DNA of 58,225 nucleotides from a virus, in the IMG/VR virus record IMGVR_UViG_3300022074_000042, positions 1 through 58,225 of that record; one strand, given 5' to 3'. A model generated the notes under the pieces. That model was not told the DNA's origin. It ran no database searches and saw nothing but the letters and a program-made list of their open reading frames with translations. Of this stretch, positions 30,278 to 48,478 are shown one piece after another. The position numbers and the translations under genes are program-made. Position 1 is the stretch's first letter, and each line of letters begins with the position of its first letter.

Positions 30278-31780
30278 ATGAAAATATTAGGTTTTAGCGC
30301 TGGCTCACACGATTCTAGTTATGCCATCTTTGAAGATGGTCGTTTAGTAATACACGAAGAATTAGAGAGGATAACTAGAGTAAAAGAAACAGAAGAAGAT
30401 GTATTGCAATATTTAGAAGAGTCAGGGGTAGACCTTGATGAGTTTGACTACATTGTTACATACCCACACGGGAACCCTATAGGTTACTCACAGACTTACT
30501 TAAATATACAACGTAAAAACCCATCTAAATGTGTAGAGATTGGTCATCATTTAGCTCATGCAGCTAATGCTTTTTATAATAGCAAGTATGATGACTCATT
30601 AGTTGTAACGATAGATGGAGGGGGTTGGGACAATGGAAGACCTGGATGTCTAACGTCATGGCAAGCTGATAAAGATAGTATTAAAAATTTAGATTATAGA
30701 ATGTCTCCAAATTTAGGTGGGTTTTGGCAAGATTGCACAAGAGAGATTTTTGGATTAAGCGGTGGTGGACCTCCATATGGGTGTCAGGCTGGAACCGTTA
30801 TGGCTATGTCATGTATGGCTAATGAATCTGAAACACCAGAAAGACCCTACAGTCAATATGCGGGTTGTTCTGATCAAAGAAAATATAATTTAGCACAAGG
30901 TATTCAAGATGTTACGGAGAATATTGTAAAAGAATATATACAGAAAAATCTAGGAGAAAACACCAACTTGTGTTTAGCTGGCGGTGTCGTTCTCAATTGT
31001 GTATTAACTGGCAAGATTAAATCTTGGTTTCCTCAAATTAAAAATATTTTTATACCACCTGTTCCTTATGATGCAGGTTTAGCTATTGGGTGTGTACAAT
31101 ACTTTTTGAAAGAACATTTGAAAAAGGATTTGATAATTGATCAATTATTTGACTCTCCATATTTAGGAGCGTCTTATGGCGATGAACACATTAATAATGC
31201 TTTATTAGAGTTTGCAGATAAAATTGAAACTGTTGAATGCTCTGATTTAGATGTAGCAAAATTATTGACAGAAAAAAATATTATATCTGTTTATGGAGGT
31301 AAAAGCGAGTCGGGTAGAAGAGCTTTAGGCAATAGGTCTATATTAGCAGATCCTAGACACGAAGATATGAAGGATATTATTAACCAAAAAGTCAAACACA
31401 GGCAAAGCTTTAGACCTTTTGCTCCATCTATATTACGAGAGCATGTAGCTGATTGGTTTGTAGAAGATATAGATAGCCCCTATATGAGTTTTGCTATACC
31501 ATTTAAAAAAGGAAAAGCCAAATTAGTTCCTGCTGTTGTCCACTTGGACGGCACGGGTAGACTACAAACTGTAACACAGTCATCTAATAATTGGTATTAC
31601 AATTTTATAAAGACATTTAGCTCGTTAACTGATGTCCCAATTATTCTAAATACTAGCTTTAATGATAGAGAGCCTATTGTTGAAACACCAAGTGATGCGA
31701 TCAAAACTTTTTTAAAAACAGATATAGATTTTCTTTACTTTAGAGAAAAAAATTGTTTAGTTAAAAAAAATATTCAATAA
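30278..31780 (+). CDS. Carbamoyltransferase (NodU/CmcH family)
   Basis: 500 residues. It should transfer a carbamoyl group from carbamoyl phosphate, using ATP, to a sugar or antibiotic hydroxyl. Conserved parts: MKILGFSAGSHDSSYAIFEDG at the N terminus, HHLAHAANAFY (about 89-99) with metal-binding His, VVTIDGGGWDNG, then YGGKSESGRRALGNRSILAD (about 338-357) and LNTSFNDREPIV (about 460-471). The length is slightly less than the family's 560-600. As part of the island it probably carbamoylates a glycan. Six bases separate it from the preceding gene. Confidence 0.92.
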   Translation: MKILGFSAGSHDSSYAIFEDGRLVIHEELERITRVKETEEDVLQYLEESGVDLDEFDYIVTYPHGNPIGYSQTYLNIQRKNPSKCVEIGHHLAHAANAFYNSKYDDSLVVTIDGGGWDNGRPGCLTSWQADKDSIKNLDYRMSPNLGGFWQDCTREIFGLSGGGPPYGCQAGTVMAMSCMANESETPERPYSQYAGCSDQRKYNLAQGIQDVTENIVKEYIQKNLGENTNLCLAGGVVLNCVLTGKIKSWFPQIKNIFIPPVPYDAGLAIGCVQYFLKEHLKKDLIIDQLFDSPYLGASYGDEHINNALLEFADKIETVECSDLDVAKLLTEKNIISVYGGKSESGRRALGNRSILADPRHEDMKDIINQKVKHRQSFRPFAPSILREHVADWFVEDIDSPYMSFAIPFKKGKAKLVPAVVHLDGTGRLQTVTQSSNNWYYNFIKTFSSLTDVPIILNTSFNDREPIVETPSDAIKTFLKTDIDFLYFREKNCLVKKNIQ

Positions 31781-33122: not shown

Positions 33123-33807
33123 TCTTGGTTTATTTGGCAGGAAGTATTTAGATACAGTAGTTTATTTAAATACTTTAAAGTCGGGCGAAACCAATATTGC
33201 TTTGAAAGTTGATAAAACTGTTGGCGGCATTTTTAATATTTTAAAGGCTAATATTCCATCGGTTATATCTTACTGCTATCAAGACAGTGAAGTAGAAGCA
33301 TTTATTATCAGTGAGTCTGATAGTTCGACAAGAAGCTCTATTATTCACTCTTTTCGTAATTCTGAAAAACCTAAAATAAAAGAGGATTTATTAGATTGGT
33401 TACATATTGCATATGTAGATGACTTGTCTCAACCTGAAATATTAAATAATTTAAAAACAAAAATAAGTTTAGATTTTTGCACAATTAAAGAAAGAGAAAA
33501 TTATCTCCATTTAATTAAAAAATCATCATTAGTTTTCGATTCTAGAGAAAGGAAAGCTTTATATAGCGACCTTAATTTTAAAACACCTTTAATATTACAC
33601 GATAAACACGGCTGCGAATGCATAATTCAAGGTAAAGTCGTGAGTGAGGGTTTCACCGATCCACAGGAAAATATTCATGTCAATGGAGCTGGCGATATTT
33701 TCGCTGGAATATTTATTTCTAAATACTATAATTCTACACTAGACGATGCTATAAAATTAACTCCAAAAGAGACAACCAAATACCTTATTAAAAAAAATGA
33801 AATATAA
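33103..33807 (+). CDS. PfkB-family sugar kinase
   Basis: 234 residues from the ATG at 33103 (a TTG directly before is less likely), shorter than the 300-330 usual for the family. The start NFNLGLFGRKYLDTVVYLN resembles the PfkB N terminus. HVNGAGDIFAGIFISKY (about 189-205) is the C-terminal signature with the catalytic Asp and anion hole (GAGD). The middle is reduced, perhaps lacking the usual lid. It overlaps the phosphatase gene and is overlapped by the fusion gene, so the three are translated together. Substrate probably a sugar phosphate. Confidence 0.82.
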   Translation: MQQKNFNLGLFGRKYLDTVVYLNTLKSGETNIALKVDKTVGGIFNILKANIPSVISYCYQDSEVEAFIISESDSSTRSSIIHSFRNSEKPKIKEDLLDWLHIAYVDDLSQPEILNNLKTKISLDFCTIKERENYLHLIKKSSLVFDSRERKALYSDLNFKTPLILHDKHGCECIIQGKVVSEGFTDPQENIHVNGAGDIFAGIFISKYYNSTLDDAIKLTPKETTKYLIKKNEI

Positions 33808-34945
33808 TTTACTTTTACCCATAGCTGGTAAGGCTCAAAGGTTTGTTGATCAAGGTTATACAATGCCCAAGCCTTTAATTATGGCTAAAACAAAACAAGT
33901 TATTGATTGGGCTATGGAGTCTATCGATACAAAAGATTGTAATTTGATTTTTGCTGTAAGGCTTGAACATATAAATAATTTTTCTATAGATGAGATTTTA
34001 AAGCAAAAGTTTGGAGAAAGTGTAAAAATTGTAGTTATTGATCACGATACAGATGGCTCTGTTTCGACATGTTTGTTAGCCAAAGAGTATATTGATAATG
34101 ATATCCCCTTAATTATTTATACCCCAGATGTTTATTTCCAAAACAAATTTGATCCTGATGATATAAATGAAAATTTAGATGGCCTTTTGCTTACTTTTAA
34201 AGCTAATAGCCCAGCTCACAGTTATGTAGCTACAGACGAAAATGGATACGCGACTAAAACGGTAGAAAAACAAGTAATTAGTTCAGATGCGGCTGTTGGT
34301 GTTTATTATTTTAAAAAAGGTAGATATTTTGTTGAATATGCTGAAGAGCTTGTGCGGAAAGACATTAGAACGAAAGATGAGTTTTATATCTGCCCCATGT
34401 ATAATTTGCTGATTAGAGATGGTCGGAGCGTTAGTATTAAGCAGGTTGAAAAAATGCATGTGCTAGGCACTCCAGAAGAATTAGAATTTTTTGTTGATAA
34501 GGTTGCTTACAAATTTGGTGAAAAACCTGTAGGTCTTTGCTGTGATCACTCTGGCTATCAAAGGAAGCAAGATGCTAAAACCGTCTTGGAGTCTTTAGGT
34601 ATTGAATACGTTGATTTTGGATGCCATGTAGAGAAAGATGTAGACTATAATGCTTATGTGAACCAAGCGGTAGAATCCTTAAATAACAAAACTTGTGATT
34701 TTATTTTAGGTTTTTGCAGAACTGGTCAAGGTGTTAATATTTTAGCAAATGATAAAAAAGAAGTAAGGGCTGCATTGATTTTTGACGAATATACAGCGGA
34801 AATGTCTCGCAGACATAATTGTGCCAACTTTTTTTCTATACCTTCTAAGTATACATCCATTTCTTCTCTTAAAGATATTATAAATACATTAGTAAGTTCA
34901 TCTTTTGATGGGGGTAGACATATGACTAGAGTAAGCAAAAAATGA
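33797..34945 (+). CDS. Fusion of sugar nucleotidyltransferase and RpiB-type isomerase
   Basis: 382 residues, two domains. Residues about 1-235 are a nucleotidyltransferase: LLLPIAGKAQRFVDQGYTMPKPLI, then VIDHDTDGSVSTCLLAKEYI and an acidic YTPDVYF. Residues about 243-382 match RpiB: CCDHSGYQRKQDAK, GIEYVDFGCHVEKDVDYNAY, FCRTGQGVNILAND with the ring-opening Cys, RRHNCANFFS with the catalytic His, and FDGGRHMTRV near the end. Both sites look intact. RpiB normally interconverts ribose-5-phosphate and ribulose-5-phosphate. The fusion, next to a kinase and a phosphatase, suggests one enzyme makes both ends of a sugar-activation route. I know of no named family with this order. Confidence 0.85.
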   Translation: MKYNLLLPIAGKAQRFVDQGYTMPKPLIMAKTKQVIDWAMESIDTKDCNLIFAVRLEHINNFSIDEILKQKFGESVKIVVIDHDTDGSVSTCLLAKEYIDNDIPLIIYTPDVYFQNKFDPDDINENLDGLLLTFKANSPAHSYVATDENGYATKTVEKQVISSDAAVGVYYFKKGRYFVEYAEELVRKDIRTKDEFYICPMYNLLIRDGRSVSIKQVEKMHVLGTPEELEFFVDKVAYKFGEKPVGLCCDHSGYQRKQDAKTVLESLGIEYVDFGCHVEKDVDYNAYVNQAVESLNNKTCDFILGFCRTGQGVNILANDKKEVRAALIFDEYTAEMSRRHNCANFFSIPSKYTSISSLKDIINTLVSSSFDGGRHMTRVSKK

Positions 34946-36401: not shown

Positions 36402-36745
36402 GCAAAAAAAAGGGTCCGAATAAAAGAGAAATCTTATTTAGATTATTAGACGTTCCCGATAAAGGAAGAAGACCTTTCTTTGCTAGGGAAATGAAAATGC
36501 TCAACGATCTTTGTGATCGTTACTCGCAGGATTTCATGGCTATTGTCTACTTCGATAAGAAGTTCGACTCTTTAGCTTATCTTGTCAGCGACAAGCTGAA
36601 AGAAACTCTTGACGAAAAATTCAGAGCTTTCAATTTTAAGGTTGACTTATCCAAGTATAAGACCTATGATATAGGCGATAAGTCGGGGCAAGATAGCAAT
36701 GTGCTTCGTAAAACTAAAACAATAAAAGACTTTTTAAATGAGTGA
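36398..36745 (+). CDS. Hypothetical protein linking the glycan and replication modules (GTG start)
   Basis: 115 residues, basic at the start (SKKKGPNKRE) and helical, with no Cys and no membrane segment. The start is GTG overlapping the previous TGA (GTGA). It ends eight bases into the RecA-like gene, so it is expressed with the replication genes. I do not recognise it; a recombination or replication accessory is plausible from position. Confidence 0.6.
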   Translation: MSKKKGPNKREILFRLLDVPDKGRRPFFAREMKMLNDLCDRYSQDFMAIVYFDKKFDSLAYLVSDKLKETLDEKFRAFNFKVDLSKYKTYDIGDKSGQDSNVLRKTKTIKDFLNE

Positions 36746-37850
36746 TAACATAGAACCAGCAAATATCCTTGGTAATTTTTTAAAAGCAAACAAGGACGAT
36801 CATTTTAATTTCGAAGATACGGTGGAATACAAAGTTTCTAGCGGTTCCCTACAGTTAGATTACCATCTTGCTGGGGGCTTTGGTCCTGGGTTGCATCGAT
36901 TCACGGGAGTTAACGAAGGTGGCAAAACCTCTGAATCTTTGCAGGTTATGAAGAACTTTTTAACTAGTGTAGATAAATCTAGAGGTGTGTATATCAAAGC
37001 GGAAGGAAGGTTAGGTCCAGAAGTTAAAGAAAGATCTGGGGTTAAATTTGTTTTTTCTCCAGAAGAGTGGGTGGATGGAACTTGTTTTGTTTTCGAGAGT
37101 AATGTTTACGAAGCGGCTATGACTCTAATCAGACAGTTGATTACCAATAATGACGATAAGATTAAATATTGCTTTATCCTAGATTCTGTAGATGGTTTAA
37201 TTAAGAAGGACGATTTAGCGAAAGGTTTTGAAGAGAGTAGCAAGGTAGCAGGTGGTGCGGTAATTGCTTCTGATTTTTGCAAAAAAACTAGCACTGCGTT
37301 AGGTAAAAGGGGACACATGGCTATTTTCATCAGTCAAGTCAGAGCGGATATCAAACTAGATCCTTATTCAAAAGCGCCTGTCCGTCAGACTACAGCTACA
37401 GGAGGTAATGCGTTATTGCACTTCGCTAACAATATTATGGAGTTTGAACCTAGATTTAAGGGCGATTTGATTTTGAAAAATCCAACTGTAAAAACTATAG
37501 ACTCTAAAAAAAATCCAATCATTGGACACCAAGCTAAAGTGACGATTAAAAAATCCGCTCACGAAAATACGAACATGACTATCTCTTATCCTATAAAATA
37601 TGGACGTATTAATGGCACATCTATTTGGGTAGAAAAAGAAGTCGTAGACTTACTATATGCTTGGGAGTTTATGCAGAAGAAAGGAGCTTGGATTAAACCC
37701 ACAGAAGATTTTTTAGATTTGCTAAAAGAAAACAAATTTGACTTTCCAGAAAAAATACAAGGAGATAATAATTTATTTAAAACTATCGAAGACAACAAAG
37801 ACTTGTGTGAATTTCTGATCAACTATTTCAAAGAACAAATTGTAGCATGA
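36738..37850 (+). CDS. RecA/UvsX-like recombinase
   Basis: 370 residues. Walker A GVNEGGKT is at 57-64. The Walker B strand is YCFILDSVDGL (about 145-155), and AIFISQVRADIK with TTATGGNALLHFANNIMEFE (about 195-240) covers the L1 edge, L2 and the conserved GG. The protein should form filaments on single-stranded DNA and drive strand exchange. Length is close to UvsX (391). The C-terminal region is Lys/Asp rich. Neighbours are a nuclease, helicase and primase, so recombination-linked replication is likely. Confidence 0.92.
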   Translation: MSDNIEPANILGNFLKANKDDHFNFEDTVEYKVSSGSLQLDYHLAGGFGPGLHRFTGVNEGGKTSESLQVMKNFLTSVDKSRGVYIKAEGRLGPEVKERSGVKFVFSPEEWVDGTCFVFESNVYEAAMTLIRQLITNNDDKIKYCFILDSVDGLIKKDDLAKGFEESSKVAGGAVIASDFCKKTSTALGKRGHMAIFISQVRADIKLDPYSKAPVRQTTATGGNALLHFANNIMEFEPRFKGDLILKNPTVKTIDSKKNPIIGHQAKVTIKKSAHENTNMTISYPIKYGRINGTSIWVEKEVVDLLYAWEFMQKKGAWIKPTEDFLDLLKENKFDFPEKIQGDNNLFKTIEDNKDLCEFLINYFKEQIVA

Positions 37851-38254
37851 AATTTGTTGACCGATACGGCAAAGAAAGAAACCTTAAAAATGCAAAGAAA
37901 TATTTAATTGATTGGGAAAAACCTAGCAGAAGTAAATTTCAAACTACTGTAAAAAAATTCTTGTATAAATACTGGAAAAATGACATTGTTTTTGAAGAGT
38001 TCCGTGTGGTTGGCAGCAGATTAACTTTAGACTTTTACAACGCTAATAAAAAAATAGCCGTAGAAGTTCAGGGAGCGCAACACACAAAATTTGTTAAGTT
38101 TTTCCACAAAAACCATTTTAAATATGCTGATCAACTTAAAAGAGATGAGCATAAATTAAACTTTTGCAAGGCTAATGAAATTCAGCTAGCAGAAATTTAT
38201 CCCAAAGACGAAATCCAAGCTTCTTTATTTACCGATCAAGACATTTATTTATGA
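37847..38254 (+). CDS. PD-(D/E)XK-type endonuclease (Vsr/DUF559-like pattern)
   Basis: 135 residues. The core is FRVVGSRLTLDFYNANKKIAVEVQGAQH (Asp about 63, Glu-x-Gln about 73-75, His about 78), followed by KRDEHKLNFCKANEI. The D-(12)-E-V-Q pattern with a following His is that of Vsr and related nucleases, with Gln in place of the usual Lys. The N-terminal 40 residues are basic. It could process recombination or replication intermediates next to RecA. Start overlaps the RecA stop (ATGA). Confidence 0.75.
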   Translation: MKFVDRYGKERNLKNAKKYLIDWEKPSRSKFQTTVKKFLYKYWKNDIVFEEFRVVGSRLTLDFYNANKKIAVEVQGAQHTKFVKFFHKNHFKYADQLKRDEHKLNFCKANEIQLAEIYPKDEIQASLFTDQDIYL

Positions 38255-38493
38255 ATTTACCAGAAGGCAGTGACGATAAGGAATTTTGTATTCCTACAGA
38301 GATGGTTGATAAGCTCTACGAGCTTTCGGGTGGGGCTGACAAGTATAAAGGTGTTATCATGGCTGTTTCTTCTGAAAATGGGAAGCCGCTTATTTATTGC
38401 AAATTTGATTGTGGTATGACAGAATTTGCTTTAACAAAAGCTTTGGAAAATCATTTCCAACATGCATCTAACGAAATAATAGAAGAGGATTAA
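38251..38493 (+). CDS. Small hypothetical replication-region protein
   Basis: 80 residues, acidic, with alternating strand and helix and a C-terminal helix ending in Glu/Asp. It overlaps its neighbours by four and one bases, so it is co-translated with the nuclease and helicase. A helicase-loader or accessory role can only be guessed; I see no motif. Confidence 0.6.
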   Translation: MNLPEGSDDKEFCIPTEMVDKLYELSGGADKYKGVIMAVSSENGKPLIYCKFDCGMTEFALTKALENHFQHASNEIIEED

Positions 38494-40010
38494 TGATATA
38501 CAATTTTGAACTAGAAAAACAGTTATTAGCTGGTTTGCTTAAAGAGCCAGAAAGCCTTGCGGAGATTTCTAATTTCATTAGTAATTCAGATTTCTACTCT
38601 AAACAAAGCTCTTTGCATTCTGCGATCTTTAGAATCATAAAACAAGCTATCGATGCGGGTGATGAAATTGATGAGATTATAATCGCGCAAAGAGTAAATG
38701 AGGTTGGATTATCTTTTGAGGACAACCTCAATCCTTCTGATTATATTAAGTCTTTGTCTTTGAGGAAAGTCCCCAAAGGTAATATCTTAAAGACAGCCAA
38801 AGAACTTAAAAAGTATACAATAAGAAGAGAAATACTAGATTCTTCTCAAGAGATAGCTAAGAAGATGAAGAACATAGCTCCAGAATCTTCTTATAGAGAT
38901 ATCATAGAGGTAGCTGACAATGTTTATAATTCTCGAATTAATCTTTACGAGATAGGAAACGACACCCCAGAGAACATTTACGAGGAAATGGAAGCTCTTG
39001 TCGAAGAGCGTGGAAATAATCCCGTTACTGAATTTGGCATGATGGGTCCACATGGAAAGATAAATGATATTTATGGCTCTCTTTTAAGAGCTGGTAATAT
39101 TACAGTTATTGTGGCTCGTTCTGGTGTCGGTAAGACACAGTTTTGTATGGATTACTCTACCAAAGTCAGCTTGAAGTATGATGTCCCTGTTCTGCACTTC
39201 GACAATGGAGAGATGAGTAAAGAGGAACTGATCATGAGACAATGCGCTGCTCTATCTGGAGTGCCTATGCATTTACTGGAAAATGGTAAATGGAGGCAAG
39301 CTGGACAGGATGTGGTAGATAAAGTCAGAGCTGTCTGGCCTAGAGTTAAAAACCTAAAATTCTACTATTACAATGTCGGAGGAATGGATGTAGACTCTAT
39401 GGTCAATACTCTAAAGAGATTTTATTATTCGAAAGTTGGCAGGGGTAACCAAATGGTATTTTCTTTCGATTATATCAAAACAACGTCTGAAAATAATGGC
39501 AATAAATCAGAATGGCAAGTCGTTGGAGAAATGGTCGATAAATTTAAGAAGTGCGTCCAAAAAGAAATCTTACATGACGGCAACCCTGTTATCCCTATGA
39601 TTACATCAGTTCAATCCAACAGATATGGTATAACAACCAACAGGACTTCTCAAAATATAGTCGATGATGAATCTATTGTTTCTCTATCAGATAGGATTAC
39701 TCAATTCTGCTCTCATATGTTCATTCTTCGCAGTAAAACTACAGACGAAGTAGAGATGGAAGGCGGGAGATTTGGAACACATAAACTTATTAATGTAAAA
39801 GCCCGACACTTAGGAAGCGATATTGCTGGAGCAGTAGAGCCTGTAAGCATTGGCGATTCTTTGAGAAAAAATGCTATTAATTTAGATTTTAATAATTTTA
39901 ATATCACAGAGAGAGGAGATCTTAGGGATATAGCAAGAGTTTTAAATGGAGAGGAAGATTTAGACAGTGATGGAATCCAAGAAACAATCCCAGACTTCGA
40001 TCAATTCTGA
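38493..40010 (+). CDS. dnaB: Replicative DNA helicase, DnaB type
   Basis: 505 residues. An N-terminal helical domain (about 1-115) like DnaB-N is followed by the RecA-like motor: Walker A ARSGVGKTQF (208-217), PVLHFDNGEMSKEELIMRQ (H1a, about 232-250), MVFSFDYIKTTS (Walker B region, about 322-333), and PMITSVQSNRYG (H3, about 367-378). The hexamer unwinds the fork ahead of the phage polymerase. The usual length is 450-500. The start overlaps the previous stop (TAATG) and the primase gene starts within its end. Confidence 0.93.
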   Translation: MIYNFELEKQLLAGLLKEPESLAEISNFISNSDFYSKQSSLHSAIFRIIKQAIDAGDEIDEIIIAQRVNEVGLSFEDNLNPSDYIKSLSLRKVPKGNILKTAKELKKYTIRREILDSSQEIAKKMKNIAPESSYRDIIEVADNVYNSRINLYEIGNDTPENIYEEMEALVEERGNNPVTEFGMMGPHGKINDIYGSLLRAGNITVIVARSGVGKTQFCMDYSTKVSLKYDVPVLHFDNGEMSKEELIMRQCAALSGVPMHLLENGKWRQAGQDVVDKVRAVWPRVKNLKFYYYNVGGMDVDSMVNTLKRFYYSKVGRGNQMVFSFDYIKTTSENNGNKSEWQVVGEMVDKFKKCVQKEILHDGNPVIPMITSVQSNRYGITTNRTSQNIVDDESIVSLSDRITQFCSHMFILRSKTTDEVEMEGGRFGTHKLINVKARHLGSDIAGAVEPVSIGDSLRKNAINLDFNNFNITERGDLRDIARVLNGEEDLDSDGIQETIPDFDQF

Positions 40011-41037
40011 AGAATTTCAAGGAATTCTGGAATCAATAGGTTACAGTCTAATAGATTGTGGCGATCATTGGAGAACCCAAGCTCTTTATAGAGATGGAGA
40101 CAACAACACTGCTGTTAAAATATATAAGAACACTGGTGTTTGGATGGACTTTGTTGAAAACAAAGGGTGCAAACCTTTTGAAGCTTTAATCAGACTTACT
40201 CTTAAAGATAATAAACAGACAGAGGAAATTCTATCAAACTCTTCTACAGATAACGTAACTGTTTATCAACCCAAAGAAAAAATTGAAATGGAAAAAATTT
40301 ACGATGACTCTCACTTAGAGAGATTATTCCCAAATTATAACTTCTATAGCAAAAGAAAAATTTCCGAAGAAACTCAAAAAGCTTTTCAGGTAGGTTTAGC
40401 GGGGGTGGGAAAGATGTATAGAAGAATGGTCTTCCCTGTTTATAATGAACACCAACAAATCATTGGATTTTCAGGAAGAAAAGTTGATGACCATAATGAT
40501 TTCCCTAAATGGAAACATATTGGGAAGCGCAATAATTGGGTTTACCCAGCTTTCAATAAAATGACGGGGGTAGAGGAAGAAATAAATTTAAAAGAAGAAA
40601 TAATTTTAGTAGAAAGTATAGGTGATGCATTGGCTCTTTACGAACAAAACATTAGGAATGTTCTTGTCATTTTTGGTTTATCTGTTAATAATAACATTAT
40701 TAATTACCTTAGTAGTAGGCGTATTAATCGGATATATATTTCAACAAATAACGATAACAACAGTGGGGAAAATAGAGGGTTTATTGCGGCCTTAAAAAGT
40801 TTTTTGAAATTATCTACCTACTTCGATTTAAGCTCTTTAAGTGTAAAATTCCCACCAAAGCCGTATAATGATTTCGGTGATGCTCATCTAGAGGGATGTG
40901 ACATTAAGAAATATTGGAATGAAAAATCAATAGATCAAAATGCACAACTAAAATTTATTTGCGATTTTGTTAAAAACAATTCTTCTAGCTTCACTAAAAA
41001 AGAAGTAAAAACTGCTCTATTACTTAGTGATGACTGA
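39970..41037 (+). CDS. DNA primase with Toprim domain
   Basis: 355 residues from the ATG at 39970; a GTG just before is in frame. The N-terminal region (about 1-115) has a fold-back pattern without a clear zinc ribbon. The Toprim core shows IILVESIGDALALYEQNI (Glu, about 212-229) and ISTNNDNNSGENRGF (Asp-x-Asn, about 254-268). A basic RRMVFPVYNEHQQIIGFSGRKV (about 149-170) is the RNA-polymerase edge. It makes primers for the fork. It overlaps the helicase by 41 bases, suggesting coupling. Confidence 0.85.
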   Translation: MESKKQSQTSINSEEFQGILESIGYSLIDCGDHWRTQALYRDGDNNTAVKIYKNTGVWMDFVENKGCKPFEALIRLTLKDNKQTEEILSNSSTDNVTVYQPKEKIEMEKIYDDSHLERLFPNYNFYSKRKISEETQKAFQVGLAGVGKMYRRMVFPVYNEHQQIIGFSGRKVDDHNDFPKWKHIGKRNNWVYPAFNKMTGVEEEINLKEEIILVESIGDALALYEQNIRNVLVIFGLSVNNNIINYLSSRRINRIYISTNNDNNSGENRGFIAALKSFLKLSTYFDLSSLSVKFPPKPYNDFGDAHLEGCDIKKYWNEKSIDQNAQLKFICDFVKNNSSSFTKKEVKTALLLSDD

Positions 41038-42055
41038 ACCTCAAACACCTCTATCGGCTAGTCGGATTAAGACGGCGCAGTCTTGTTCTTGGTTATACTG
41101 GTCGAAGTATAAACTCCATCTTCCAGAAAAAGGAAATGATGGAGCTAGAAGAGGTTCGATATGTCACCTTGTTTTTGAAGTTCTAGGGGTTAAAAAAAGA
41201 AAAAAATATTTTAATAAAATAATTAAAACTGAAGATGTTTTTTCTGTCCCCTCTATAAAAAGACTTATCCTTAAACATGCTGTAAAGGAAGGTGTCGATG
41301 ACAAAGAAAATGTAGATCTAATGAAGGACATGATCTTCAATGGGTTATCTTATGATTTCTTTGGCGGTGATTTATCTAAACCAACAGAGGAATATTCTGA
41401 AAAAGATTTCGACATAATCAAGAATGAGGGGGATATCAGTTATAAAGTAAGAGGCTTTATTGATAAACTTTTTTTATACAAAAAAGAAAAATTTGCTCTT
41501 ATCAGAGACTTTAAAACAAGTAAAGACGTATTCAAAGGCAAAGATCAAACAGATAATTTGCAAGATTTGATGTATAGTCTAGCTGTCAAAAAGCTTTTCC
41601 CAAAATACTCAAACAGAGTTAGTGAATTTTTATTTCTAAAGTTTGACTTAGATCCTAACGCTTCTAAATCTGGTGTTGTTAGGATGAAGCCTTTAGACCC
41701 TGACGAATTAGAGGGCTTTGAGTTGCAGCTCACAGAGATTCAAAAATATCTTGATAACTTTTCAGAAAGAGATGCTAGATATAATTTCGCAGCGCATCAA
41801 GGCTTTCCCAAAGATAGCTCTTTCAGTGGAAAACTTCTTTGTGGATTTGCAACGCGCAAAGGAGAGTTAAAAAAGGACGGCACTCCTAAATGGCATTGCC
41901 CAATGAAATTTGATTTTTTCTATTACGAAGTTTATGACAATAAAGGTCAGTTTAAGAAATCTTATTTTGAAGAAGAGTTTTCCGAGGATTTGATACCTGA
42001 AGGCGGTTCTTTTGAGCTTCGATATTATCAGGGTTGTCCCGCACATTCTTCTTGA
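41030..42055 (+). CDS. RecB/Cas4-like PD-(D/E)XK nuclease with likely Fe-S cysteines
   Basis: 341 residues from the ATG at 41030 (GTG just before is in frame). SASRIKTAQSCSWLYWSKY (about 8-26), RRGSICHLVFEVLG (His about 47), GFIDKLFLYKKEKFALIRDFKTSK (Asp, then Asp-x-Lys, about 143-166) and QDLMYSLAVKK form the RecB-family nuclease site. Cys near 18 and three Cys near the C terminus (LLCG, WHCP, GCPAHSS) could bind an iron-sulphur cluster as in AddB and Cas4. Probably trims DNA ends in recombination. Confidence 0.82.
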   Translation: MTEPQTPLSASRIKTAQSCSWLYWSKYKLHLPEKGNDGARRGSICHLVFEVLGVKKRKKYFNKIIKTEDVFSVPSIKRLILKHAVKEGVDDKENVDLMKDMIFNGLSYDFFGGDLSKPTEEYSEKDFDIIKNEGDISYKVRGFIDKLFLYKKEKFALIRDFKTSKDVFKGKDQTDNLQDLMYSLAVKKLFPKYSNRVSEFLFLKFDLDPNASKSGVVRMKPLDPDELEGFELQLTEIQKYLDNFSERDARYNFAAHQGFPKDSSFSGKLLCGFATRKGELKKDGTPKWHCPMKFDFFYYEVYDNKGQFKKSYFEEEFSEDLIPEGGSFELRYYQGCPAHSS

Positions 42056-42071
42056 CTTCATGGTTTAATTT

Positions 42072-42093
42072 GGTATCTTACGTTAATGATACC
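42072..42093 (+). repeat. Inverted repeat spanning the start codon of gene 42086
   Basis: Arms GGTATC (42072-42077) and GATACC (42088-42093) enclose a ten-base loop. The right arm begins at the G of the ATG. The same geometry occurs at 21173-21194. No other control element is visible in the 30-base gap. Confidence 0.4.
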
Positions 42094-42823
42094 TGTATTC
42101 AAGTCCACTTACTCTATCGGGAAGAGCATTCTAACTCTCGATGAAGACGAGATTGAAGGCGGTCCCGATAGCATCTTCACCATATGCGAAGAAAACGACA
42201 TTAAATCTTTAGTCTTAGTAGAAGACTCTATGACGGGATTTGTAACCGCTCACAATAGATGTAAAGATAAAGATATTGATCTTGTTTTTGGACTTAGGTT
42301 GACTTGTTGTAACGACACAAAAGAAGATGACAATTCAGACCATAAGATCGTAGTGTTCGCTAATGATGATGTTGGATGTAAACTGCTTTACAAGATTTAT
42401 TCTCATGCTCATACAGGTAATGGTAAGGTAGATTTTGCATTTCTTAATTCTGTTTGGAATGATAGTGTCGAATTAATTATCCCTTTTTATGATTCATTTA
42501 TCTTTAATAATAATTTTCACTTAAGGAAATGCGTTCCTGATTTTGCTAAGATAACACCTACGTTTTGGGTAGAAGAAAACAATCTTCCATTCGATGAGTT
42601 ACTAAAAGAGAAAGTTATTGCATTCTCTACTAGAATCGATAGACCCGCTAAGAAAGTAAAAAGTATTTTCTACAAGAATAAGAGGGACGTAGAAGCTTTG
42701 CAAACATACAAAATTATTTGTAACAGAAACTTTGGGAGACCTGCCACTTTAAGCTCTCCTAATCTAAATCACTTTGGCAGCAATGAATTCTGTTTTGAAT
42801 CTTACTTAGAAAAACAAAAATGA
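42086..42823 (+). CDS. PHP-like N-terminal part of DNA polymerase III alpha, separate gene
   Basis: 245 residues. The order fits the PHP domain of DnaE: a start SIGKSILTLDE where DnaE has HxHxEYS, ICEENDIKSLVLVEDSMTGFV where DnaE has the A-TDHG-G pattern, then VFGLRLTC where DnaE has IiG-E, and later helices. The metal-binding His are absent (Tyr/Ser instead; EDS for TDH), so it is probably structural, not an active phosphoesterase. Together with the core at 43449 it adds up to about 1096 residues, the length of a full DnaE. ATGA couples it to the exonuclease gene. Confidence 0.7.
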   Translation: MIPVFKSTYSIGKSILTLDEDEIEGGPDSIFTICEENDIKSLVLVEDSMTGFVTAHNRCKDKDIDLVFGLRLTCCNDTKEDDNSDHKIVVFANDDVGCKLLYKIYSHAHTGNGKVDFAFLNSVWNDSVELIIPFYDSFIFNNNFHLRKCVPDFAKITPTFWVEENNLPFDELLKEKVIAFSTRIDRPAKKVKSIFYKNKRDVEALQTYKIICNRNFGRPATLSSPNLNHFGSNEFCFESYLEKQK

Positions 42824-43452
42824 ACGAATCACTACTTAGATTTAACAAAAAGCAAAGATATGTGGTCTTTGATACTGAAACAGAGGGTTTGAACTTGATT
42901 ACTTCTCGACCTTGGCAAGTCGCTTGGATGGTCGTAGAAGGAGACAGTGTAATTGAGAAAAATGATCTGTTTATTGAGTGGCCTGACTTGGAGGTTTCAG
43001 AGGGTGCTGCTAAAATCACAGGTTTTACAGAAAAGGAATACAACAAAAGATGTGAACCCCCTAAACAAGTCTGGGATAAATTTTCTAAAGAATTATATAA
43101 TCCTGAAAACTTGATAATAGGGCAGAACCTTTTAGGTTTTGATGTTTATATGGTTAATATTTGGAGAAGGCTTATGAATTTACGTGCAGATTATTCTTTT
43201 ATACCTAGAATTTTAGACACTAAGGCTTTAGCCACAGCTATAGCTAAAGAAATGCCTGTAGTTAAAGATGATTTTATTGGCTGGCAATACAGGTTGTTAA
43301 ATTACAGAGAAAGAGGTTTAAAAACATCTCAAGCCACTTTATTGAAGAAATATAATATTGACCATGACCCTAAGAGGCTGCATGATGCTCTATACGATAT
43401 TGAGATGAACTTTAAAGTATTCCGTAAACAATTATTCGATCTTGAGATATGA
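42820..43452 (+). CDS. DEDDh 3'-5' exonuclease (DnaQ-like proofreading)
   Basis: 210 residues. Exo I VVFDTETEGLNL (Asp/Glu, about 15-26), Exo II IGQNLLGFDVYMVN (about 100-113), and Exo III HDALYDIEMNFKVF (His-Asp, about 187-200) give the four acidic residues and the His of the DEDDh group. The gene stands between the two parts of polymerase III alpha and overlaps both by ATGA, so it probably proofreads for that polymerase. It lacks a clear beta-clamp motif. Confidence 0.92.
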   Translation: MNESLLRFNKKQRYVVFDTETEGLNLITSRPWQVAWMVVEGDSVIEKNDLFIEWPDLEVSEGAAKITGFTEKEYNKRCEPPKQVWDKFSKELYNPENLIIGQNLLGFDVYMVNIWRRLMNLRADYSFIPRILDTKALATAIAKEMPVVKDDFIGWQYRLLNYRERGLKTSQATLLKKYNIDHDPKRLHDALYDIEMNFKVFRKQLFDLEI

Positions 43453-46004
43453 GTTCTAGCACATTTAAAGGGTATGATACCCCATTTCCAGTTGGGGTGA
43501 AACTCCCAGAAATCAAAATACAAAAAAAATATTATGACGAGGTTTCTTGTAAAGACCTGGGAGACAACTTTAAATTCTTAAGGAAGCTTTGCTTTGCGCG
43601 TCTTAAAGAGAAAGGAATTCATGAGTTTGAAAACGCTCAAGTTTATTACGATAGATTAAAAGAAGAGTTAACGATTTTTGATGAACTTGGTTTTGTGGAT
43701 TACATTCTTTTGAATTGGGATATTATTAACTTCTGTAAAGAAAACGATATTCCGACAGGAGCAGGTAGAGGTAGTGCGGCAGGTTCCTTGGTTCTCTATG
43801 TCATAGGAGTTACCAATATCGATCCTATTGAATACGATCTATTCTTTGAGAGGTTCGTCTCAAAAAGCAGGGCTAAGAAGATCGAGCATAATGGAGAAGT
43901 ATTTTTAGATGGTAGTTTATTGGCTGACGTAGATAACGATATTTCCTACGATAGAAGGGCAGAGGTTATTAAATACATCGAAGATAAGTATGAAGGTAAG
44001 ACATCAAAAATTCTCACCTTAAATACTCTTAGTGGTAAGCTTTGCATGAAAGAGTGTGGTAAGATTATAGCTGAACTTTCTGAAATGGAGGTTAATCAAA
44101 TAAGTGATACAATCCCTAAACATTTTGGCATCGTAGCTAAATTAGATACAGCATATCAAGAGAGCGAGTCTTTCAAATCTTACGCTGATAAACATCCTAA
44201 AGTATTTAATATAGCTAAAAAATTACAAGGATTGAATAAAAATACTGGAGTCCATCCTTCTGGGATTTCTATTTCATATTATGATTTAGATGGGATTATG
44301 CCACTTCAGAAAACTAATGATGATTCTTTAATTTCTGGTTACGATATGAATGACGTAGCTAGCCTTAGTGTCAAATTTGACATTCTAGGTCTAAGAACTC
44401 TTTCTGTTGTCCATGATGTTTGCAAGCAAGTGGGCATAAACGCTTCGGACATAGATATTAACCATGAAACTATTTATGCTGCTTTATCCTGTCTCCGATC
44501 ACCTCAAGGTCTTTTCCAGATAGAAGCAGAAACAAACTTCAAAGTTTGCAAGCTAATAGCTCCTCAAAATCTAGAGCAATTGTCTGCCGTGGTAGCTATA
44601 GCAAGACCTGGAGCTTTAGATTTCAAGGATAATTATGCTACTTATGTAAGAACTGGGGATTTCCAGTCTGTTCATGAATTCTTTGATGATATTTTGAGCT
44701 ATACTGGTGGTATTCCGCTCTATCAAGAGCAACTTATGAAGATGGCTGTAAAGGTTGGCTTCACTCTAGACGAAGCTGAACAACTAAGAAGAATTGTTGG
44801 CAAAAAGAAAGTCGATCAAATGCCAGCTTGGAAGGCCAAGATTGAGGAAAAAATTATTTCCAACAAATTAGATAGTGCTATTGGTGATGTTCTTTGGAGA
44901 GTCGCGGAGGATTCTGCTAATTACTCATTTAACAAATCTCACTCTATCAGTTACGCTCACTTGGCTGCTATAACTGTTTACTTAAAATTTACATACCCAC
45001 AAGAGTTCTTTTTGAGCTTATTAAAGTTTGCTAAATTTGAACCTAACTCTCATGAGGAAATAGCTAAAATCTCTCAAGAGCTTTCTCATTTCGATATTAA
45101 GCTTTTACCACCAGATTTAAATAAGTCTGATATCGACTTTAAGATAGAGGGTAAAAATATTAGGTATGGATTAAATTCTATTAAAGGCGTATCCACTAAA
45201 GTTTTACAATCTTTGCTTGATTTTAGAGAGGAGTCTTTCTCTAATAAATATGAAATATTCTTGTCTGCAAAACAAGCAGGTTTGAATATAGGAACTTTAT
45301 CAGCTTTAGTTCAAGCGGGTTTACTAGATTCTTTTGTCAAAAGCAATCGTCCTAGATTAGTCTTAGAGGCTCAAACATTTAATATTTTAACAGATAGAGA
45401 AAAGAGAAATTTTGTAGCCCTTGGGGAGAGAGATGATTATGACATAATTAACTCCATTCATAATGCTAAAAAGGGAGATATCGTTGGAGATGATAACAGA
45501 AAGCTCTTTTCAGAGAAAAGATTCAATACATTTCGTAAAAAATATCAGCCATATAAAGATATTTACGAGATGAACAAAGAGCATATAAAATACGCTAATT
45601 GGTTTTTCGAAGAGAAATTGTTGGGCTATAGTTATTCTCACAATATTAGAGAAGTGTTTAGTTATGAAGACGATTTTAATTCCGCAGACGATGTTAAGGA
45701 GCTTGGAGACCGTGCTAATGTAAAATTTGTAGGTGTTTTGACTGATATTATGCGTAGAACTAGCAGAAATGGCAATAAATATGCCCGTTTAACTATGCAG
45801 GACGAAGGGGGAGTTCTAGAAGGTTTATTTTTAGATGGTAGTAGAGATGCTAGACTGACAAATTATTTAGATTCTGGAAAAAAATTACCCAAAAAGTCAG
45901 ATGTCGTGATAATATATGGCTCTAAGGGAGATGATATTGTTTTCATCGACAAGATTTTTCCCCTAAAAGACAAAATCTACATGAAGTTATCTGAACTTAA
46001 ATAG
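43449..46004 (+). CDS. dnaE: DNA polymerase III alpha, polymerase core (separate gene)
   Basis: 851 residues. Begins exactly where DnaE leaves the PHP domain (LGDNFKFLRKLCFARLKEKG). GAGRGSAAGS (104-113), NIDPIEYDLFFERF, ADVDND (D160, D162; 159-164) and KFDILGL (D311) give the catalytic palm. IPLYQEQLMKMAVKVGFTLDEA (about 416-437) and FNKSHSISYAHLAA (about 496-509) are fingers and HhH-type segments. The C-terminal OB fold is clear (FVGVLTDIMRRTSRNGNKYAR, about 760-780). An insert with IEHNGEVFLDG (about 144-155) precedes the catalytic motif. A bacterial-type C-family polymerase is unusual for phages, which mostly use A or B. Confidence 0.93.
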   Translation: MSSSTFKGYDTPFPVGVKLPEIKIQKKYYDEVSCKDLGDNFKFLRKLCFARLKEKGIHEFENAQVYYDRLKEELTIFDELGFVDYILLNWDIINFCKENDIPTGAGRGSAAGSLVLYVIGVTNIDPIEYDLFFERFVSKSRAKKIEHNGEVFLDGSLLADVDNDISYDRRAEVIKYIEDKYEGKTSKILTLNTLSGKLCMKECGKIIAELSEMEVNQISDTIPKHFGIVAKLDTAYQESESFKSYADKHPKVFNIAKKLQGLNKNTGVHPSGISISYYDLDGIMPLQKTNDDSLISGYDMNDVASLSVKFDILGLRTLSVVHDVCKQVGINASDIDINHETIYAALSCLRSPQGLFQIEAETNFKVCKLIAPQNLEQLSAVVAIARPGALDFKDNYATYVRTGDFQSVHEFFDDILSYTGGIPLYQEQLMKMAVKVGFTLDEAEQLRRIVGKKKVDQMPAWKAKIEEKIISNKLDSAIGDVLWRVAEDSANYSFNKSHSISYAHLAAITVYLKFTYPQEFFLSLLKFAKFEPNSHEEIAKISQELSHFDIKLLPPDLNKSDIDFKIEGKNIRYGLNSIKGVSTKVLQSLLDFREESFSNKYEIFLSAKQAGLNIGTLSALVQAGLLDSFVKSNRPRLVLEAQTFNILTDREKRNFVALGERDDYDIINSIHNAKKGDIVGDDNRKLFSEKRFNTFRKKYQPYKDIYEMNKEHIKYANWFFEEKLLGYSYSHNIREVFSYEDDFNSADDVKELGDRANVKFVGVLTDIMRRTSRNGNKYARLTMQDEGGVLEGLFLDGSRDARLTNYLDSGKKLPKKSDVVIIYGSKGDDIVFIDKIFPLKDKIYMKLSELK

Positions 46005-46010
46005 TGTAAA
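46002..46010 (+). promoter_or_regulatory. AGTGTAAA box before the Clp gene
   Basis: TAGTGTAAA, with AGTGTA at 46003-46008, 13 bases before the first ATG at 46016 (16 before the second). It overlaps the stop region of the polymerase gene; there is no Shine-Dalgarno. Confidence 0.45.
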
Positions 46011-46015
46011 GAATT

Positions 46016-48478
46016 ATGATGGGTCTAACCGATTTCAATTTAACACCCAAAGCAAAAAAGGGACTTAAGGATTCGCAAAAATTTGCAGAAGCTAATGGAC
46101 ATACTCTAGTAACAACAGCTCACCTAGTTTATGGTTGTATGATGAATATATCTGACAGTTGCGCTGTCAGGTTGAAATCTCATGATTTGCACGTAGTAGG
46201 CAAGAAATTTATTAAGCTGTTTAAAAAATACGCAGCTCAAAATAAAGAATATTTTCAAGCTTCTAAAGGCCAAGGAGGTTGGCATGAAGATGTAAATGAA
46301 ATTATATTTTTTGCTAGAGATTTTTCAGATAACTTTGATAGTTACTTTATAGGAATTGAACATATTCTTTATACCATTTTAGACATGGAGGGTCATTTCA
46401 TAGAATATATGAAGAGTAATGGTATCGATACTATACATGCCAAAGATATTATCGAAACGTATATTCTTGAGACAAGTATTCCTCCTACAGATCAAATAAA
46501 GAACGCATTGACTGACTCTGGGAGATTAGACATAGAAGGTAAAATGAAAGCTCGCAGTAAAAACGAACTTTCAGAGGATTCATTATCTAATTTAACAAAA
46601 TATTGTATTAACTTAAACGAAAAATTTGTTACGGAAAAAACCTCTCTTATCTCTGGCAGAGATCGTGAGATACATGAATTAGTAGAGATTTTATCTAAAA
46701 AGAATAAAAGTAATGCTATCTTAGTCGGAGATGCAGGTGTAGGTAAAACTGCTATAGTAGAGGGTCTGGTGCAAAAAATAATTAACCAAGAAAGCCCCCC
46801 TCACATGTCTTTAATGCAGATTTATTCTGTTGATATAAGCGCTATGGTAGCTGGCACAAAGTATAGGGGAGAGTTTGAGGAAAGATTTAAATCTCTCATC
46901 GCAGAAGTGGAGAAAGACTCTGGTATCATTTTGTTTTTTGACGAAATACATACAATAATAGGAGCGGGGAATTCTGAAGGTGCAGTCGATGCTTCTAATA
47001 TGCTCAAGCCAGCTTTAGCGAGAGGAGATATTAAATGTATTGGGGCTACGACCTCTCAAGAATATAAAAAATTCTTTGAGAAAGATACTGCGATGAAAAG
47101 AAGGTTTGATAAAATCTTTATTGAAGAACCTTCTAAAAAAGACACTAAAGACATTGTGATGAAAACGTTGCCTTATTACGAGGATTTTCATCATGTTAAG
47201 TATAAAGAGTCGGACGTAGATACTATTATTGATTTATGCGATAAGTTTCTAAGCAACAAAAAATTCCCAGATAAAGCGTTCGATATAATTGATCAATTAG
47301 GAGCGAGAACAAAAATAAAATACAATGAAGTCCCTTCTACTGTTGAGGAAGTAAGAACATCATTTTGCGAATTTTTAATGGGGACTACAGAGGATGAAAA
47401 GCTAGATGAAGAAAAATTTACCTCGATGCTAAAAAACTATCTGCAAGTTATGGCTCGATATGCAGAAAAAAAAGGTAGAAAGCAGAATATAAGACAAAAA
47501 GACATCCTTTCTGTTTTCGAAGAAAAGACGGGGTTATCTCCTAAAACAATAGCTAAAAACACTTCTTCTTTTACCAAATTCTACAACCAGATGAACTCTG
47601 AAGTTTTTGGTCAAGAGAAGAACATAAAAGTCATACATAACGCATTAGCATGTGTCAAAGCTGGCTTAAACGACCCTAAAAAGCCATTAAGTAACTTTTT
47701 GTTTATTGGTTCTACAAGTGTAGGCAAGACATTTACAGCTAAGAAAATAGCAAAATATTTCTTTGGTAACGAAAAATCATTTTTGCAGCTAAATATGAGT
47801 GAGTATCAAGATAAAACAGGTATCTCTAAACTCATGGGTGCTAACGCTGGCTATGTAGGATACGAAGAAGGTGGTCTACTAACTGAATACGTTAGAAATA
47901 ATCCTAACTGTGTTGTTTTGTTTGATGAGGTAGAGAAATGTGAGCCAAAAGTCTTAGATATCTTATTGCAAATACTAGACGAAGGGTATATCACAGACAA
48001 CCTTAATAGACGGATAGACTTGAGTAAAACTATAGTAGTTATGACTTCTAATGTGGGGTATAAAGAGAAAACCAAAAGAAGCATGGGCTTCTCTCCACAA
48101 ACAGAAAATGAAGATGAAATCTATAAAAACTCTCTCAAAAAATATTTTAGACCTGAATTGTTGGCTAGAGTAGATGAGGTTTTAGTTTTTAACGAGCTAG
48201 GAGAATCCGAGTTGCTTAAGATTATTAGAGCTGAATTATCAGCTATAGAAGACAGACTCTCTGAAAGAAACATTGAAATCTGTATAAATAAAAGCGTGGA
48301 AAAACACATCTTAAACGAAATTAAAATGCAAAAAAATCACGCTAGACAAATAAAAAATGCAGTAAAAGCTATTGTGCAGGTTCCTATTTCGAACTACATA
48401 GTAAAAAACAGAAATGTGGATAAAATTTCCATAAAAGTAGTTGACAAATCGCTAGAATTCTCTAAGATAGCTACATGA
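46016..48478 (+). CDS. ClpA/ClpC-like AAA+ unfoldase
   Basis: 820 residues. Two N-terminal Clp repeats (about 10-150), AAA module 1 with GDAGVGKTAI (238-247) and LFFDEIHTIIG, and AAA module 2 with GSTSVGKT (about 565-572) and VVLFDEVEKCE. The pore-1 segment is YRGEFEERF and the pore-2 segment is YVGYEEGGLL. A KRSMGFSP loop (near 690) sits where ClpA and ClpC carry the IGF/VGF tripeptide that binds ClpP; ClpB lacks it. No ClpP gene is in the window, so it could use host ClpP. Two ATG codons follow each other; either may start it. Confidence 0.9.
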   Translation: MMGLTDFNLTPKAKKGLKDSQKFAEANGHTLVTTAHLVYGCMMNISDSCAVRLKSHDLHVVGKKFIKLFKKYAAQNKEYFQASKGQGGWHEDVNEIIFFARDFSDNFDSYFIGIEHILYTILDMEGHFIEYMKSNGIDTIHAKDIIETYILETSIPPTDQIKNALTDSGRLDIEGKMKARSKNELSEDSLSNLTKYCINLNEKFVTEKTSLISGRDREIHELVEILSKKNKSNAILVGDAGVGKTAIVEGLVQKIINQESPPHMSLMQIYSVDISAMVAGTKYRGEFEERFKSLIAEVEKDSGIILFFDEIHTIIGAGNSEGAVDASNMLKPALARGDIKCIGATTSQEYKKFFEKDTAMKRRFDKIFIEEPSKKDTKDIVMKTLPYYEDFHHVKYKESDVDTIIDLCDKFLSNKKFPDKAFDIIDQLGARTKIKYNEVPSTVEEVRTSFCEFLMGTTEDEKLDEEKFTSMLKNYLQVMARYAEKKGRKQNIRQKDILSVFEEKTGLSPKTIAKNTSSFTKFYNQMNSEVFGQEKNIKVIHNALACVKAGLNDPKKPLSNFLFIGSTSVGKTFTAKKIAKYFFGNEKSFLQLNMSEYQDKTGISKLMGANAGYVGYEEGGLLTEYVRNNPNCVVLFDEVEKCEPKVLDILLQILDEGYITDNLNRRIDLSKTIVVMTSNVGYKEKTKRSMGFSPQTENEDEIYKNSLKKYFRPELLARVDEVLVFNELGESELLKIIRAELSAIEDRLSERNIEICINKSVEKHILNEIKMQKNHARQIKNAVKAIVQVPISNYIVKNRNVDKISIKVVDKSLEFSKIAT

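Follow-up and report, generated by a model that had tools for sequence, protein, structure and literature searches.

Three adjoining genes of IMG/VR virus record IMGVR_UViG_3300022074_000042 (58,225 bases, analysed whole and referred to below as the window) encode the PHP domain of a DnaE-type DNA polymerase III (Pol III) alpha subunit, a DEDDh exonuclease and the remainder of the polymerase as separate proteins. This arrangement probably goes back to one ancient split of DnaE alpha between PHP and palm that retained the exonuclease gene in the intervening space, and the products probably form a PHP-exonuclease-core replicase. The genes and the overlaps that join them are as follows.

42086-42823, + strand: PHP-domain protein, 245 amino acids (aa), equivalent to residues 6-248 of E. 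coli DnaE, metal ligands lost
42820-42823, + strand: ATGA stop-start overlap of the PHP and exonuclease genes
42820-43452, + strand: DEDDh 3'-5' exonuclease of the DnaQ/PolC-exonuclease type, 210 aa, catalytic motifs intact
43449-43452, + strand: ATGA stop-start overlap of the exonuclease and core genes
43449-46004, + strand: DnaE polymerase core without PHP, 851 aa, with palm/thumb (DNA_pol3_alpha), fingers, (HhH)2 and a weak C-terminal OB

Position of the split

Matches of the core in Pfam were to DNA_pol3_alpha, finger and HHH_6, and the OB was found at the C-terminus, as in DnaE; no tau-binding C-terminal domain was matched in the core. Catalytic aspartates were present in the motifs ADVDND and KFDILGLRT, and D160, D162, D164 and D311 were invariant in the alignment of the core family. 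Among solved structures in PDB, the core matched DnaE with an E value of 2e-116, from about residue 276 onwards, as opposed to 7e-7 for PolC. Judged by its sequence, the core is a family C polymerase of the DnaE type and not PolC.

The PHP protein and the core matched two complementary pieces of one phage DnaE model, PHROG_405 (1190 positions), the former at positions 62-151 (E value 4e-9) and the latter at positions 325-1039 (9e-157). The same two-piece picture was obtained with NCBIfam DnaE models, in which the core begins at positions 276-289. In profile alignments (hhalign) with 35 intact bacterial DnaE sequences, the PHP profile covered the DnaE alignment up to column 268 (3.7e-10) and the core profile covered columns 303-1057 (5.7e-99). 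Thus, the two parts are complementary and the break lies at the PHP/palm boundary, where an initial annotation of this DNA, made from its letters alone, had placed it. In the same comparisons neither part contained a counterpart of the short helix that joins PHP to the palm (about residues 249-262 of E. coli DnaE). Also in agreement with that annotation, the parts add up to a normal DnaE length, 245 and 851 aa giving 1096 aa compared with 1053-1188 aa for most intact bacterial DnaE proteins. At all loci of the split clade described below, the N-terminal PHP domain was encoded by a separate gene and not as part of the core chain.

PHP protein and exonuclease

The match of the PHP protein to Pfam PHP (E value 0.0037) was below the Pfam cut-off. 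Its structure model (AF2, 105 family rows) had a predicted local distance difference test score of 89 and a predicted template modelling score (pTM) of 0.86, and the best PDB match of the model was E. coli DnaE (Foldseek, 1.3e-9). Residues 1-245 of the model superimposed on DnaE residues 6-248 (4jom/2hnh) with a VIA-align Z score of 20.8 at 3.0 A over 224 residues, compared with Z scores of 16-18 for the PHP of PolC. Loss of the metal-binding residues, as noted in the initial annotation, was evident from hhalign comparisons, in which V4 and K6 occupied the place of the HxH motif and the D, E and H ligands further on were replaced too; within the PHP family, a ligand His position is occupied by an invariant K87. 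The nine-residue metal site of an active PHP exonuclease is lost, with no alignment obtained at its Cys position. In two related loci (L165, 331-1650, and L178, 346-1665) the PHP protein reaches 439 aa through an additional C-terminal domain of some 180 aa, nuclease-like by eye, with no Pfam match.

The exonuclease matched Pfam RNase_T (1e-14), and its top NCBIfam match was the PolC exonuclease domain (3.9e-11, compared with 8e-9 for the DnaQ model). The DEDDh motifs were identified as DTET, the D of GFDVY and HDALYD, and the active site was conserved over 79 aligned sequences. The exonuclease copy in a co-fold model of locus L168 resembled E. coli epsilon (2gui) with a Z score of 19. The C-terminal sequence KQLFDLEI contains no clear clamp motif and is not conserved across the clade.

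Conservation among relatives

From IMG/VR, four scans in which PHP or core served as the query yielded 224 loci. The order PHP, exonuclease, core was found in 204/204 loci that held all three genes, as claimed for the window from its sequence, and the genes were fused in none of them. A fifth scan found more than 520 stretches that encode PHP relatives and, among the 80 kept, every locus that held more than PHP shared this order. Distinct PHP proteins numbered 177 and distinct trios 162. The claim that all of the genes overlap by ATGA was correct for both junctions in the window but did not extend to relatives, where, of the 162 distinct trios, 44 had the overlap at the PHP stop and 80 had it at the exonuclease stop. 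Spacers of more than 300 nucleotides (nt), often a whole gene, were noted between PHP and exonuclease in 37/204 loci and between exonuclease and core in 17/204, and the reading frames stayed intact at the dozens of loci with genes inserted in either gap. These long spacers indicate that PHP, exonuclease and core are truly separate cistrons.

In comparisons with locus L005, ratios of nonsynonymous (dN) to synonymous (dS) substitution rates were 0.05 for PHP, 0.11 for the exonuclease and 0.03 for the core, with dN of 0.063 for PHP and 0.032 for the core. By these values, all three genes are under purifying selection.

Several open reading frames (ORFs) occupy the gaps in relatives. Between PHP and exonuclease, a LAGLIDADG-like homing-type ORF was noted in L033 (6703-7648) and also in L224, and a 164-aa ORF with no Pfam match in L141 (3650-4122) and related loci of one subclade. 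Between exonuclease and core, a cupin ORF, mannose-6-phosphate isomerase-like by eye, is inserted in L010 (7370-7717), L049, L054 and L005. One subclade has a conserved ORF of 70-85 aa, without a Pfam or PHROG family, at the latter position (L037, 7415-7630; L132, 4728-4956; 56 other loci), although a few of the 58 profile matches were cupin ORFs, drawn into the profile from this same position; its product is a possible small accessory subunit. The window ORF at 38251-38493 was suspected to encode this small subclade protein and had no match to the profile.

Origin and distribution

In a tree of 85 cores, the phylogenetic check proposed with the initial annotation, the split sequences formed one clade with support of 100, its branch measuring 1.37 changes per column. 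The split clade is, on the basis of this tree, a single derived branch among phage and bacterial DnaE; the sequences next to it are long-branched phage DnaE, and the sister group is therefore unsure. The phages that carry the split are numerous, uncultured and for the most part marine. No close homologues were present in 50,697 sequenced phages, the PHP protein having no match, the core matching at less than 60% identity (best about 28-32%) and the exonuclease at 25%. Among 84,980 species genomes scanned, the family was found in only four contigs of metagenome-assembled genomes (labelled Flavobacteriaceae, Flavobacteriales, Lokiarchaeota and Woesebacteria), with matches at 51-76% identity followed by a gap down to 33%. 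These four are probably phage contigs binned with their hosts or by mistake, and two of them make flavobacteria a first guess for the hosts.

Proposed replicase and alternatives

According to the preferred reading, one old gene fission of DnaE alpha at the PHP/palm boundary would have left the proofreading exonuclease gene held in the gap, and the three translationally coupled products would bind each other as a PHP-exonuclease-core heterotrimer. The core would carry out DNA synthesis, the exonuclease would proofread and PHP would serve as a non-catalytic scaffold. In E. coli, the alpha PHP domain holds epsilon, the C-terminal helix of epsilon packing on this domain while the epsilon catalytic domain contacts the thumb (PMC4703070). 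The physical association of PHP, exonuclease and core is inferred. A precedent for a phage replicase in two co-purifying, working chains is the split gp43A/43B PolB of T4-like Aeromonas phages, the two chains of phage 25 being described as co-purifying and active (Petrov 2010, as cited in PMC2988022). That polymerase belongs to family B, and its split is tied to intercistronic sequence or a homing endonuclease (PMC2988022). Chances are about even that this phage lineage has an obligate three-chain Pol III core in which the dead PHP domain is a free scaffold joining polymerase and proofreader, and to which one subclade adds a fourth protein of about 70 aa encoded between exonuclease and core.

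Several results weigh against such an assembly. The window exonuclease lacks the C-terminal extension through which E. coli epsilon binds PHP, so that its binding mode must differ from that in E. coli. The beta sliding clamp domain (PF02767) was not found in nine contigs of up to 203 kb (L217, L220, L039 and others), so that the clamp would have to come from the host or have diverged past recognition. Gaussian covariation between PHP or exonuclease and core was no stronger than in neighbour controls at 30 effective sequences, which is too few. Co-folding, also suggested with the initial annotation, was performed with a surrogate, the stop-read-through fusion of L168 (PHP at 1-256, exonuclease at about 373-585, core from about 680, ending at 1200 aa; 74 unpaired rows). 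The domains of the surrogate folded and were confident singly, whereas their arrangement was not (pTM 0.49), and its PHP and core matched DnaE jointly only at a root-mean-square deviation of 23-28 A, with no DnaE-like docking of PHP. Given the artificial linker, the unpaired rows and the truncated core, this surrogate neither supports nor excludes a complex.

An alternative, judged unlikely, is that the fission is real but that PHP left the polymerase for another role, such as a regulator or the binding of DNA ends or host proteins, the replicase then consisting of core and exonuclease. The lost metal site and the faster divergence of PHP compared with the core are in keeping with such a departure, as are the long PHP-exonuclease spacers, the missing linker helix and the lack of DnaE-style docking in the surrogate. 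Set against these, PHP is strictly linked across the clade in a fixed order directly before exonuclease and core, is under purifying selection and is unchanged from DnaE in fold and size; in DnaE-type enzymes generally, moreover, PHP is structural even if inactive (PMC3919608, PMC12926913).

It is quite improbable that the exonuclease is a passenger left behind when a mobile element inserted into the gene and split it, with a function other than proofreading. Homing-type ORFs do occur in or near the cluster (the LAGLIDADG-like ORF of L033; window 37847-38254, which matches homing endonucleases), but the exonuclease belongs to the DEDDh enzymes of DnaQ/PolC type and is not a homing enzyme, its active site is conserved, it accompanies core and PHP in complete loci, and dnaQ adjoins dnaE in other phages too (PB1-like, WFC).

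Still less credible is the proposal of the initial annotation that the trio forms a PolC-like assembly or is an intermediate towards PolC, with the exonuclease between PHP and polymerase parts as a stage of PolC formation. The top NCBIfam match of the exonuclease fits this proposal and the gene order superficially resembles PHP(exo)-Pol. Contrary to it, the core and PHP were both closer to DnaE than to PolC, PHP runs without interruption through the site where PolC has its insertion and is followed by the exonuclease, the OB is C-terminal, and the split clade formed a single branch within the tree of phage and bacterial DnaE. None of the features of PolC (an exonuclease within PHP as part of one chain, an OB at the N-terminus and a core of the PolC type) was found in the window trio.

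An artefact, whether a frameshift, a misassembly or a single chain restored by an intron or split intein, has a negligible chance of being correct: inserts of the HNH/intron type interrupt other phage DnaE genes (HNH in Bacillus phage KLEB27-3; Alicyclobacillus KKP_3916) and inteins split cyanobacterial DnaE (PMC3919608), yet the 162 distinct trios come from independent assemblies, the 4-nt overlaps on both sides are too tight to accommodate a ribozyme, 41000-47000 had no Rfam match, PHP stops at DnaE residue 248 and carries no additional stretch the size of an intein, and a frameshift or missing joint is excluded since a 633-nt exonuclease gene would have to go to undo the split.

Comparison with known systems

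The trio preferred here as a split DnaE replicase resembles the E. coli Pol III core (DnaE alpha and DnaQ epsilon) in its DnaE-type PHP, palm, thumb, fingers, (HhH)2 and OB, its separate DEDDh exonuclease and its inactive PHP. It differs in that PHP is a protein apart from the remainder of alpha, the tau-binding C-terminal domain is lacking and the exonuclease is without the PHP-binding tail of epsilon. Known ties between exonucleases and family C polymerases are a separate epsilon in E. coli, insertion in PHP in PolC and, in some Bacteroidetes, fusion at the N-terminus (PMC3919608), and the layout of the window is none of these three. Bacteroidetes DnaE1 and PolC have, as proposed for the trio, an exonuclease physically tied to the PHP part, but in one chain, with the exonuclease at the PHP N-terminus in the former and inserted in PHP in the latter (PMC3919608).

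Among phages, the dnaQ-dnaE pairs of PB1-like phages (phiVader, WFC) also place an exonuclease gene next to a phage DnaE, which differs in being a single chain with fused PHP and in having the exonuclease upstream rather than between the parts. Cellulophaga phage phi13:1 (L314, 3870-7470), a flavobacterial phage, has a two-gene DnaE in adjacent genes; its split lies inside the polymerase domain (palm), giving 525 and 673 aa, with no exonuclease gene between, and is an independent split. The suggestion that split C-family polymerases are unusual, especially in phages, is qualified by this example. Split phage polymerases are already known, and a PHP/core split with an exonuclease gene between the parts is a further variant; no description of a PHP/core split in phages was found in the open-access literature, subscription papers being outside the search.

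The reason that DnaE polymerases retain an inactive PHP domain is unsettled. With PHP naturally separate from the polymerase and kept under purifying selection, the role of PHP as proofreader scaffold, folding partner or other becomes testable by adding or omitting one subunit, with no cutting of a protein. The separation also reveals a clean break point of DnaE, in a replicase type that is common to many uncultured phages and absent from the phage collection searched.

Neighbouring genes

The trio is part of a conserved replication cluster with the order recA-g135-g80-dnaB-primase-PDDEXK-PHP-exo-core-ClpA. Its other assigned members in the window are as follows.

36738-37850, + strand: RecA/UvsX-like recombinase, first gene of the cluster
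38493-40010, + strand: DnaB-type helicase
39967-41037, + strand: DnaG/TOPRIM primase
41027-42055, + strand: PD-(D/E)XK nuclease, adjoining the PHP gene upstream, in relatives too
46016-48478, + strand: ClpA-type AAA+ protein, a conserved neighbour adjoining the core downstream

Between recA and dnaB, a 135-aa ORF (37847-38254) in a conserved place resembles the C-terminal part of homing/HNH endonucleases. A carbamoyltransferase (Nol-like) and a protein with 50% identity to one of Synechococcus myophages were noted at 30278-31780 and 33797-34945, respectively; these genes are common with cyanophages.

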